From Wenyingzhuangia gilva (GTDB lineage: Bacteria > Bacteroidota > Bacteroidia > Flavobacteriales > Flavobacteriaceae), in NCBI RefSeq assembly GCF_030519655.1, contig NZ_JAUMIT010000006.1:62001-126000 (forward strand): a DNA stretch of 64,000 nt, written 5' to 3'. The notes beneath the pieces are model-generated. The model saw only the letters and a list, made by a program, of their open reading frames with translations, was not told the DNA's origin and did no database searches. Positions within the stretch are counted from its first letter, which is position 1; each line of letters starts with the position of its first letter. The translations under genes and the position numbers were made by a program. Shown piece after piece: positions 819 through 3,751 of this stretch.

Positions 819-2093
819 ATGAAACGTGATCAAATCATATTTGATTTAATTCAAGACGAAAAAGAAAGACAATTAAAAGGAATTGAATTAATTGCTTCTG
901 AAAACTTTGTTAGCGAACAAGTAATGGAAGCGCAAGGTTCTGTTTTAACAAATAAATATGCTGAAGGGTATCCTGGAAAAAGATATTACGGAGGATGTGA
1001 AGTTGTTGATATTGTTGAACAATTAGCCATAGACAGAGCTAAAGAATTATATGGTGCAGAGTACGTAAACGTACAACCTCACTCAGGTTCTCAAGCCAAT
1101 GCTGCAGTATATTTTGCAGTATTAGAGCCAGGAGATAAAATTTTAGGTTTTGACTTATCTCACGGTGGTCATTTAACTCACGGTTCTCCGGTAAACTTTT
1201 CTGGTAAAATTTACCAAGCAGTTCATTATGGTGTAGATAAAGAAACTGAGGTTTTAAACTACGATAACATTTTAGAAATTGCAAAAGCAGAAAAGCCAAA
1301 AATGATTGTTGCTGGTGCATCTTCTTACTCAAGAGATATGGATTTTGCTAAATTCAGAGAAATTGCTGATGAAGTGGGAGCTTATTTATTGGCCGATATT
1401 TCTCACCCTTCTGGAATGATTGCAAAAGGAATCTTAAATGATCCAATGCCACACTGTCACTTTGTAACTACAACTACTCACAAAACTTTAAGAGGTCCAA
1501 GAGGAGGAATGATTATGATGGGTCAAGATTTTGACAATAAAGATGGTATTACTTTAAAGAACGGAGAGTTAAAGAAAATGTCTGCAATACTTAATAGTGC
1601 TGTATTCCCAGGAATGCAAGGTGGACCATTAGAGCATGTAATTGCTGCAAAAGCAATTGCTTTAGGAGAAGCTTTAACCGATGAGTACTTACATTACCAA
1701 GTTCAAGTTAAAAAGAATGCTGCAAGATTGGCTAAAGAATTAGTAGCTAAAGATTATAAAATTATTTCTGGAGGTACAGACAATCACTGTATGTTAATAG
1801 ATTTAAGAAATAAAAACTTATCTGGTAAAGATGCTGAGCAAGCGTTGGTAAAAGCTGATATTACAGTAAACAAGAATATGGTTCCTTATGATACCCGTTC
1901 TCCATTTGTAACTTCAGGAATCCGTTTAGGAGCTGCTGCAGTAACTACTCGTGGATTAAAAGAAGATGATATGGCAGTAATTGCTAACTTTATTGATGAA
2001 GTAATTAACAACTTTGAAGATGAAGCGTTATTAGAAGCAATTGCTGATAAAGTAAATGAGTTTATGAAAGATAGACCATTGTTTCAATGGTAA
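819..2093 (+). CDS. glyA: Serine hydroxymethyltransferase
   Basis: The enzyme is PLP-dependent and converts serine plus tetrahydrofolate to glycine plus 5,10-methylene-THF, the main cytosolic source of one-carbon units. At 424 aa it is full length. The PLP-lysine motif [14 protein letters not shown] is present with Lys222 as the Schiff-base lysine. The N-terminal LIASENF and [15 protein letters not shown] substrate/PLP signatures are at residues 24-59. The start is the ATG at 819, the first Met of the conserved MKRDQ N-terminus. It is a single-gene unit with a good promoter upstream and a strong hairpin terminator immediately downstream; the terminator lies against the last of four convergent small peptide genes. 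Identity is very secure. Confidence 0.98.
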
Positions 2094-2114: not shown

Positions 2115-2145
2115 AAAAGAGCCGCTAATTATAGCGGCTCTTTTT
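2115..2145 (+). terminator. Rho-independent terminator of glyA
   Basis: The perfect stem GAGCCGCTA/TAGCGGCTC (2119-2127, 2132-2140) has a 4-base loop and a following T-run, with an A-run before it, so it could work in both directions. Its T-run overlaps the last codons of the convergent peptide gene at 2144-2308. Confidence 0.9.
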
Positions 2146-2308
2146 ATTTTGGAGGTAAGGTCTCTATCTTTTTTTGGTGATATAATTTTCCAGTATCCTT
2201 TGTATAATCACAATCTTGAAAAATACCACAAGAAGTATTTGCTCTTACCAAAGATTTACTGCTTTGAAGTTTAGATAAAGCCTCAATATTTTCATTTAAG
2301 TATTTCAT
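2144..2308 (-). CDS. Small peptide A of a four-member tandem family (54 aa)
   Basis: This is the gene of the array furthest from the presumed promoter. The peptide has the family N-terminus MKYLNENIEALSKL, then KSL at residues 18-20 and TSCGIF at 25-30, aligned without gaps to its three neighbours. It has two Cys (27 and 33, spacing CX5C). Its C-terminal tail (about residues 36-54: lysine-rich, ending PPK) is longer and unlike the others. There is no signal peptide and no double-glycine leader. Function unknown: conservation of the first 30 residues with a variable tail is what a precursor-peptide family would show, but no maturation enzyme is encoded next to it. The reality of the gene rests on the aligned paralogues. 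Confidence 0.75.
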   Translation of the reverse strand: MKYLNENIEALSKLQSSKSLVRANTSCGIFQDCDYTKDTGKLYHQKKIETLPPK

Positions 2309-2385
2309 AATTTCTTTTTTAATGGGTCATTTTTTTTCTGCAAACTTACATAGAAAAGAAATTTTATAAAATGTTTAAATTGTTA

Positions 2386-2544
2386 TTAAAATGCTAAACT
2401 ACGTGGTCCTTGCCCAGATTCTTTTACTAAAAAAATATTAAAATCAGATATTTTAAATATACCTTCTGAACTTGATCGGTTAGCCAATGACTTATTGGAT
2501 ATTGACTTAGTAGAAGGCTCGATGTTTTTGTTTAAGTAATTCAT
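2386..2544 (-). CDS. Small peptide B of the tandem family (52 aa, Cys-less divergent copy)
   Basis: It starts MNYLNKNIEPSTKS and keeps KSL at residues 18-20 and GIF at 28-30, so it aligns without gaps with peptides A, C and D. The TSC triplet is replaced by SSE and there is no cysteine anywhere. The tail (FNIFLVKESGQGPRSLAF) is unrelated to the other tails. The frame is open from ATG 2544 to TAA 2386-2388, with 77 bases to peptide A and 41 to peptide C. It may be a degenerating copy or a functionally diverged one. Function unknown. Confidence 0.65.
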   Translation of the reverse strand: MNYLNKNIEPSTKSISNKSLANRSSSEGIFKISDFNIFLVKESGQGPRSLAF

Positions 2545-2585
2545 AATTTAAATATTTTATAGGTTATTAATTTCTTACTAAATAA

Positions 2586-2735
2586 TTAAGGTTTATTGTT
2601 TTCAAGAAAACTCCTTACAGTTGGACTATTATATTCGTGTTTTTGAAATATACCACAGGACGTTGAACGATCTACTAGCGATTTTTCATTGGCTCTTTTA
2701 CCAATTTCTTCAATGTTTTTGTTTAAATATTTCAT
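2586..2735 (-). CDS. Small peptide C of the tandem family (49 aa)
   Basis: The N-terminus MKYLNKNIEEIGKRA is shared with peptide D; both genes are also nearly identical in DNA over the first 60 bases, which indicates a recent tandem duplication. STSCGIFQ is at residues 24-31 with a single Cys27 (the second Cys of A and D is replaced: QKH instead of QNC). The YNSP motif at about 35-38 is shared with D, and the tail is charged (RSFLENNKP). There is no signal peptide or transmembrane segment. It lies 49 bases downstream of peptide D, presumably in the same transcript. Function unknown. Confidence 0.75.
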   Translation of the reverse strand: MKYLNKNIEEIGKRANEKSLVDRSTSCGIFQKHEYNSPTVRSFLENNKP

Positions 2736-2784
2736 CTTTAAAATGTATAATAAATTGCAGTTTTTTATTTAATTCTTTTCTGTA

Positions 2785-2934
2785 TTACATTTTATTGTGC
2801 TGAAGATAATTTTTTACGATAGGACTATTATAGTCGCAATTTTGAAATATACCACATGATGTTGAATGATTCACTAGTGATTTTTCACTAGCTCTTTTAC
2901 CAATTTCTTCGATGTTTTTGTTTAAATACTTCAT
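2785..2934 (-). CDS. Small peptide D of the tandem family (49 aa, promoter-proximal)
   Basis: This is the first gene of the leftward array, divergent from the Crp/Fnr regulator with 190 bases between them. It has MKYLNKNIEEIGKRA, KSL at 18-20, STSCGIFQNCDYNSP from residue 24 and Cys27/Cys33. It differs from C mostly at third codon positions in the first 60 bases, a pattern of protein-level conservation that supports translation. No known peptide family was recognised: there is no GG leader as in Bacteroidota lanthipeptide-like precursors and no Sec signal. Function unknown. Confidence 0.75.
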   Translation of the reverse strand: MKYLNKNIEEIGKRASEKSLVNHSTSCGIFQNCDYNSPIVKNYLQHNKM

Positions 2935-3006
2935 AACTTCAGCTTTTTTAAATGTTTGTACTATTTCATACAGTAAAGCTAAAAAACATTGACAGTAACC
3001 AATCTG

Positions 3007-3108
3007 TGTTATAACAGTTTAACTACATCTTTTTATCAAGTAGGTTTGTTAAGGTAGGTATGTTTTTTCGCAGATTAGCTATAAATGTAGACTTATTTAA
3101 TACATTTG
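3007..3108 (+). promoter_or_regulatory. Divergent control region of the peptide array and Crp/Fnr gene
   Basis: TACATTTG at 3101-3108 is an exact -7 box 16 bases before the regulator ATG. The same gap holds a perfect 10-bp palindrome TGTTATAACA (3007-3016) and a near-perfect direct repeat TAGGTTTGTT/TAGGTATGTT (3041-3050 and 3055-3064, 14-bp period). The GTAAC dyad found at the sulfur promoters is not present at the equivalent position; only one half-like CAGTAAC occurs at 2993-2999. No TAnnTTTG box was seen on the minus strand for the peptide genes. Confidence 0.45.
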
Positions 3109-3124
3109 ATATATATACCACCAT

Positions 3125-3751
3125 ATGTTACAAGAATTACAATTGCATTACGGTCATCTTTTTGAAAAAGAGTTGATAGAAGAAATAGATAGAGTAGCTA
3201 CGCTAAAACAAGTTCTTGCAGGAACCAAAATAATGGATATAGGACAATATATAAAGTCTATGCCATTGTTAATAGAAGGGGCAATAAAAATACTAAGAGA
3301 GGATGAGGAAGGTGATGAATTATTGCTATATTTTCTAGAAAAAGGAGATACTTGTGCCATGACAATGACTTGTTGTGTAGGAAATCATAAAAGTGAAATT
3401 AGAGCTATTACAGAGTTAGATACCGTATTGATTATGATTCCTATTGAAAAAATGGAAGAGTGGACAGGTAAGTATAAAAGTTGGAGACGTTTTGTTTTTG
3501 ATAGTTATCACAATAGATTGATGGAACTTTTAGAAACCATAGACAATGTGGCTTTTAAAAAAATGGACGAAAGGTTGCTTAAATATTTAAAAGATAAAGT
3601 AGCTGTGACAGGAAGTAATATTGTAAAAAGCACACATCAAGAAATAGCCTATGAGTTACATACTTCTAGAGTGGTTATTTCAAGATTGCTTAAAAAATTA
3701 GAAAATCAGAAAATAATAAGTTTACACAGAAACTCATTAGAAGTATTATAA
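3125..3751 (+). CDS. Crp/Fnr-family transcriptional regulator, Cys-rich effector domain
   Basis: At 208 aa it has the typical length of Crp/Fnr proteins. It has an N-terminal cyclic-nucleotide-binding-like beta-barrel (about 10-120), a long dimer helix (about 125-155) and a C-terminal winged HTH (about 167-208; recognition region THQEIAYELHTSRVVISRLLKKLE). The effector domain has a cysteine cluster at 77, 83 and 84 (CAMTMTCC); the cAMP-binding signature is not evident and the N-terminal four-Cys pattern of Fnr is absent. Inference: it activates the nearby sulfur genes, which share a dyad spaced like a class II Crp site, and its cysteines may sense persulfide or redox state. It is transcribed alone, ends in a bidirectional terminator, and is divergent from the peptide array. 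Confidence 0.9.
   Translation: MLQELQLHYGHLFEKELIEEIDRVATLKQVLAGTKIMDIGQYIKSMPLLIEGAIKILREDEEGDELLLYFLEKGDTCAMTMTCCVGNHKSEIRAITELDTVLIMIPIEKMEEWTGKYKSWRRFVFDSYHNRLMELLETIDNVAFKKMDERLLKYLKDKVAVTGSNIVKSTHQEIAYELHTSRVVISRLLKKLENQKIISLHRNSLEVL

Follow-up and report, generated by a model that had tools for sequence, protein, structure and literature searches.

Four small open reading frames (ORFs) lie in tandem between glyA and a Crp/Fnr-type regulator gene of Wenyingzhuangia gilva. The question is whether they are protein genes, to what family they belong and what their products might do. The window referred to below is the whole 64,000 nt stretch of DNA that was analysed. The analysis shows that each of the four ORFs at positions 2144–2934 of this window codes for a protein, and that they belong to a small-protein family not described before.

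Four small genes in tandem

The four leftward frames are present exactly at the span given in the initial annotation, with the lengths listed in Table 1 and with the claimed cysteine counts of 2, 1, 0 and 2. Residues 1–30 of the four translations align without gaps; K18-S19-L20 and G28-I29-F30 are found in all four copies and TSC at 25–27 in three of the four, which is the pattern that had been described. The earlier observation is thus confirmed in every detail. Its reading of the array as a duplication with conservation of the protein also holds, but the "one diverged copy" is better described as a separate class: copy 3 is not a decaying odd member, and its class (class II), with a tail of its own, is present in six Wenyingzhuangia genomes. 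No fifth copy was found in the genome of the window, where the next match has an E value of only 1.58.

Table 1. Features of the array and its flanks in the window (1-based positions)
Feature	Positions	Strand	Evidence or remark
glyA, convergent neighbour	819–2093	+	Pfam SHMT, 3.6e-170
Bidirectional intrinsic terminator, array/glyA	2115–2144	.	13-pair stem, T run on both strands
Copy 4, class III, 54 aa, two Cys	2144–2308	-	ORF; nearest single-copy relatives full-length; pN/pS
Predicted second -7 box TAAGTTTG before copy 4	2341–2348	-	class III genes of L027 and L029 are preceded by it too
Copy 3, class II, 52 aa, no Cys	2386–2544	-	ORF; own tail common to six genus genomes; pN/pS
Copy 2, class I, 49 aa, one Cys	2586–2735	-	ORF; profile match; pN/pS
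Copy 1, class I, 49 aa, two Cys	2785–2934	-	ORF; profile match 1.0e-32; pN/pS
Predicted -7 box TAGCTTTA, array promoter	2974–2981	-	consensus TAnnTTTG; predicted +1 at about 2969
Candidate activator site, CTG-N8-CAG dyad	3002–3019	-	centred at -41.5 from predicted +1; 7 of 8 aligned loci
Crp/Fnr-family regulator gene, divergent, candidate activator	3125–3751	+	Pfam HTH_Crp_2, cNMP_binding

Substitution patterns indicate that amino acid change is held back within the copy classes and that the four ORFs are genuine protein genes. The pooled pN/pS is 0.33 in class I, 0.30 in class II and 0.16 in class III; these values take in all pairs of related sequences and for that reason are descriptive only. 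For the pair of copies 1 and 2 in the window, dN/dS is 0.22. A less clear case is a class I pair involving the MAG locus L031, with a dN/dS of 0.61. The initial annotation had proposed dN/dS between copies as a check: constraint is evident within classes (0.16–0.33), and between classes the synonymous sites are almost saturated (dN 0.73 and dS 0.93 for copies 3 and 4).

Pfam, NCBIfam, the PDB and Foldseek provide no credible match to the family. The initial annotation had recognised no such family, and the family is indeed undescribed. When members of a wide alignment were scanned singly against Pfam and NCBIfam, each match at E ≤ 1 was confined to a single member, the best having E values of 0.021 and 0.036; the best PDB sequence match has an E value of 0.81. 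The theta subunit of DNA polymerase III (PF06440 and NF008207) was considered and rejected as a chance match. It is similar to copy 2 only (E 0.0065 and 0.0062), and this weak likeness differs from a true relationship in scores far under the curated cut-offs (16.6 bits with a cut-off of 34.6, and 16.4 bits with a cut-off of 97). No other copy of the window matches theta, and neither does any member of the wide alignment at E ≤ 1, a set that does not include copy 2. Among the papers listed in literature searches on RiPPs, heme-cluster genes and small proteins, none appears to describe the family, and no paper in the collection searched has the SCGIFQD motif. The family is like other conserved bacterial small proteins, e.g., those of the GMSC smORF catalogue (PMC11364881), in being under 60 aa, lineage-restricted, conserved as protein and unannotated; it is defined here by a motif, by chromosomal addresses and by promoters.

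Distribution and chromosomal addresses

The family profile was built from 25 sequences. It matches 95 of 397 sampled Flavobacteriaceae genomes at E ≤ 0.01, of which 92 remain at the stricter limit of E ≤ 1e-5. These 92 genomes are taken as positives, with three weak ones left out (G295, G027 and G061). This profile search of flavobacterial genomes, which the initial annotation had suggested, yields homologues in 92 of 397 Flavobacteriaceae. Nothing better than E 0.001 is found outside this family in an order sample (395 genomes) and a phylum sample (395 genomes), and among sampled genomes strong matches are present only in Flavobacteriaceae. Ten weak profile matches (E 0.001–0.01) were considered as possible members by comparing their neighbourhoods, and none is convincing; seven other weak matches are in G697, G579, G871, G885, G913, G950 and G1047. 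About one quarter of the sampled Flavobacteriaceae keep this unnamed protein, most often in the heme-synthesis cluster beside a regulator, and its small size is probably why such a family-wide component has escaped notice.

Members are some 45–65 residues in length. In 43 diverse members M1, L4, I8, L20, S26, G28 and I29 are invariant and K18, S19, C27, F30, Q31 and D32 nearly so, which gives the core motif M-x-[YF]-L-x-x-x-I ... K-S-L ... S-C-G-I-F-Q-D. The gene is single-copy in 88 of the 92 positive genomes. The loci of the other 89 positive genomes were compared by means of reference genes, and show that outside the lineage of the window the family is nearly always single-copy and occupies two main chromosomal addresses. 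Neighbour names such as hemA, hemH, MATE and glyS are presumed from reading the sequences; AraC, Crp/Fnr, GlyA and XdhC are confirmed by Pfam, and the GntR neighbour has NCBIfam GntR-type matches that are under their cut-offs.

The heme-cluster address accounts for 48 of the 89 loci, where the small gene is between hemH and an AraC gene that is divergent from hemA. The order is hemE, hemC-D and hemA leftward, and AraC, the small gene, hemH, MATE (often) and hemJ rightward. The AraC gene is upstream on the same strand in 48/48 of these loci, with a gap of 99 nt or less in 37. The second address (36/89 loci) is marked by at least one of a GntR, XdhC, MocA, amidohydrolase-like or M4-peptidase-like gene. 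In 31 of these 36 loci a GntR gene precedes the small gene in the same orientation, within 270 nt in 22 and at more than 1.2 kb in nine. One locus, that of Ochrovirga, is at the Crp-glyA address, and four are at neither main address: L077 is beside a glyS-like gene, and L095, L159 and L184 are between phosphoesterase-like and NUDIX-like genes. The distance and identity of the next gene vary among loci.

In Wenyingzhuangia and Ochrovirga the genes are located between the divergent Crp/Fnr gene and the convergent glyA, as groups of two to four, and the profile search finds 2–4 copies in all seven Wenyingzhuangia genomes. There are two copies at this address in Ochrovirga and in the MAG, three in four genomes of the genus, and four in the genome of the window and in W. 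marina. The divergent Crp/Fnr gene is present at seven of eight glyA-type loci, that of the window included. Class III is similar to the single-copy relatives along its full length, tail included, and class II is without cysteine in all six genomes that have it. The genome of the window also has the heme cluster; its AraC-hemH gap contains no small gene, and holds a 173-aa ORF (L196:7772–8296) that may encode an RNA methyltransferase.

The tandem array is therefore a local amplification of Wenyingzhuangia and Ochrovirga and not a family-wide property, and the array of the window is a derived case. We infer that the gene was moved to, or kept at, the Crp-glyA address, was doubled there and then gained more copies within the genus. 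The direction of the move is taken from the frequency of the heme address and not from a tree. What is shown is that these genes form a real small-protein family without a name, present for the most part as one copy and for the most part close to regulators, which has been amplified in this lineage. The single-copy gene of the heme cluster is the better object for finding a function, and the amplification in the genus represents a natural experiment in re-siting, new control and a split into cysteine-bearing and cysteine-free forms. The convergent glyA is probably outside the small-gene system.

The Crp/Fnr protein encoded in the window has the segment TCAMTMTCC in its sensor half, and the Ochrovirga copy has TCAMTLTCC. 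This cysteine-rich stretch may sense a thiol or metal signal.

Predicted promoters and control signals

The candidate activator site of the array is a dyad upstream of a predicted promoter (Table 1). Class II sites of Crp/Fnr activators are centred at -41.5, and relative to the predicted +1 the dyad has this position in seven of eight loci. The glyA-type loci with the dyad have predicted 5' UTRs of 32–35 nt. The best genomic match to the dyad is that of the array in four of the seven genomes of the genus (G000, which is that of the window, G002, G003 and G004). The site of the array is the only dyad match in the window at three or fewer mismatches, yet 24 of 100 shuffles also have one, and the dyad symmetry by itself is not unusual in the interval. 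At the MAG locus L031 the dyad is kept and the Crp gene is absent; in Ochrovirga (L030) the Crp gene is present and the dyad absent. The -7 consensus TAnnTTTG, at -12 to -5, is that given in PMC9723704.

A different signal is found at the GntR-type loci. The motif AAC-N16-CGTT is before the gene in 20 of 36 of these, with 0.25 expected from mononucleotide shuffles, and is 44–63 nt before the start codon in 19 loci and 31 nt before it in one. An ECF-like motif of this kind is before none of 16 genes in the lineage of the window and before the small gene in one of 48 heme-type loci; it precedes AraC in three of the 48. In a study of Flavobacterium psychrophilum, ECF promoters were recognised by a CGT box in the -10 region (PMC9723704). 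The 20 GntR-type loci with the motif have the AAC box, the fixed spacer and the CGT -10 box of a predicted ECF-type promoter. Searches of Rfam with 11 GntR-type loci gave no match. In the heme-type loci the small gene appears to be co-transcribed with AraC. The predicted promoters make the wiring of these small genes directly testable.

A longer, exact form of the ECF motif was searched in 14 GntR-type genomes. It is before the small-protein gene in ten of the 14. There are 71 matches in these genomes compared with 123 for the reversed control, so that most genomic matches are attributed to chance and this account is confined to genes with the motif in more than one genome. Such genes, with the motif outside coding sequence, are DUF1361 (4/14), a small ORF before crcB (2/14) and two unnamed genes (2/14 each). 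The rsfS-ftsH pair was considered as a co-regulated operon and rejected, because the motif matches fall within the birA reading frame.

The DUF1361 membrane-protein genes (L200, L218, L225 and L253) have the ECF-like ACAACA-N15-CGTT box that also precedes the small-protein gene, at 32–33 nt in three and at 98 nt in one, and may possibly share a regulon with the small-protein gene. The small ORF (L213:1557–2117 and L259:1091–1270) is 58–60 aa with a hydrophobic start and is beside crcB, with the box 22–31 nt upstream; the identity of crcB is confirmed by Pfam in L213 only.

Possible function of the small proteins

AlphaFold2 modeling with 21 sequences gave a mean pLDDT of 62, with low-confidence helices at residues 6–14 and 43–50, and Foldseek found nothing with this model. 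No fold can be argued from so weak a model, which would suit a peptide that becomes structured on binding a partner. By eye, the four copies show no hydrophobic signal segment, and they contain no hydrophobic stretch.

The initial annotation had listed secreted or modified, chaperone-like and regulatory peptides as possible roles, and the regulatory option is the one favoured here. The proteins may be soluble cytosolic regulators or adaptors that act through a partner, with the output set by a nearby or stress-linked regulator; this is a tentative reading, somewhat short of being probable. Docking on the partner protein would involve the short helix near the N terminus and the KSL...SCGIFQD stretch, and in most copies the cysteine would serve for sensing or tuning. 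The nearby or stress-linked regulator would determine how much protein is made: through transcription that runs on from AraC in heme-type loci, from an ECF-type promoter in many GntR-type loci, and, in the lineage of the window, with a Crp/Fnr-type protein as class II activator. Class II copies, which have no cysteine, might be constitutive or competing forms. Protein-level conservation, the repeated placement behind or beside regulators and the promoter signals are all consistent with a regulatory role. So are the lack of a match to any catalytic family in the searches and the low-confidence model, which beyond helices 6–14 and 43–50 has little structure, as a docking peptide might.

Several findings are against it. 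The adjoining regulator differs between clades and 4/89 loci are at neither address, so the neighbourhood may merely mark a landing site. The GntR gap is more than 1.2 kb in 9/31 loci. L031 and Ochrovirga split the dyad from the Crp gene, and the symmetry of the dyad is not unusual. The structure model is weak (pLDDT 62), and no partner protein was found. A bolder form of the regulatory reading is that the protein is a portable output module with a single cysteine, used in much of Flavobacteriaceae and placed in evolution under three unrelated types of control (heme-cluster AraC, ECF sigma or Crp/Fnr), of which one marine lineage has made a battery with a cysteine-free antagonist or constitutive form. 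It is rather unlikely as a whole. If it were true, the partner would be a conserved flavobacterial machine without a yet-known small-protein regulator.

Alternatively, the product could be a small protein with a direct chemical action, in redox reactions or in the binding of heme or metal, with the cysteine and the acidic, Tyr or His residues of the tail as a ligand or thiol switch, e.g., in buffering heme or metal near the heme cluster. The near invariance of Cys27 in the 43 members and the location of 48/89 loci inside the heme cluster are in its favour. Nevertheless 36/89 loci are outside this cluster, class II has no cysteine in any of the six genomes having it, only one cysteine is kept family-wide, and no binding-protein HMM family matches. 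On balance such a chemical role is unlikely.

RiPP precursors (bufferin, graspetide and SPASM-matured) are short, with a cysteine-containing centre and a helix-forming N terminus. The family is like them in these properties, is likely disordered and has tandem copies, all of which would suit the precursor of a ribosomal peptide, modified or secreted, with a signalling or antimicrobial role and a maturation enzyme encoded at another locus. It is unlike them in having no maturase alongside. The initial annotation had noted no adjacent maturation enzyme, and none is recognisable among the ORFs around the array, nor among those neighbours in the 89 relatives that could be identified by reference genes. 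Two maturase classes are absent from nearly all positives: SPASM radical-SAM proteins are found in 34 of 397 Flavobacteriaceae genomes, five of these among the 92 positives, and are absent from the genome of the window. MNIO enzymes are rare among sampled Flavobacteriaceae (9 of 369 genomes), including the genome of the window (G000) and W. marina (G004). MNIO was considered as the maturase of the small proteins and rejected, as in the genome of the window the enzyme is encoded next to a Cys-repeat precursor of its own. In addition, class III is conserved along its whole length and not as leader versus core. The SPASM and MNIO evidence goes against the modified peptide suggested earlier, and the missing signal segment against a small secreted one; a precursor role is improbable.

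A small toxin or a phage- or plasmid-borne accessory gene could also appear as small tandem ORFs in an intergenic region. It is very improbable here, since no phage or plasmid relative (two BLAST searches, copy 1 only) and no viral-contig relative was found, the family is single-copy at fixed chromosomal addresses, and no hydrophobic stretch is present. Leader peptides of an attenuation system, or a repeated RNA element in which the frames are incidental, would explain short repeated units that match no family database, but can practically be dismissed in view of the pooled pN/pS of 0.16–0.33 within classes, a protein motif kept across genera at unrelated addresses, a next gene variable in distance and identity, and Rfam without a match (11 relatives only).

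The MNIO locus of the window's genome is on contig C1 (L298:4511–6504). It consists of the MNIO gene (PF05114), preceded by a 131-aa ORF with KCGE repeats and followed by an overlapping ORF, and is presumably a bufferin-type peptide locus.
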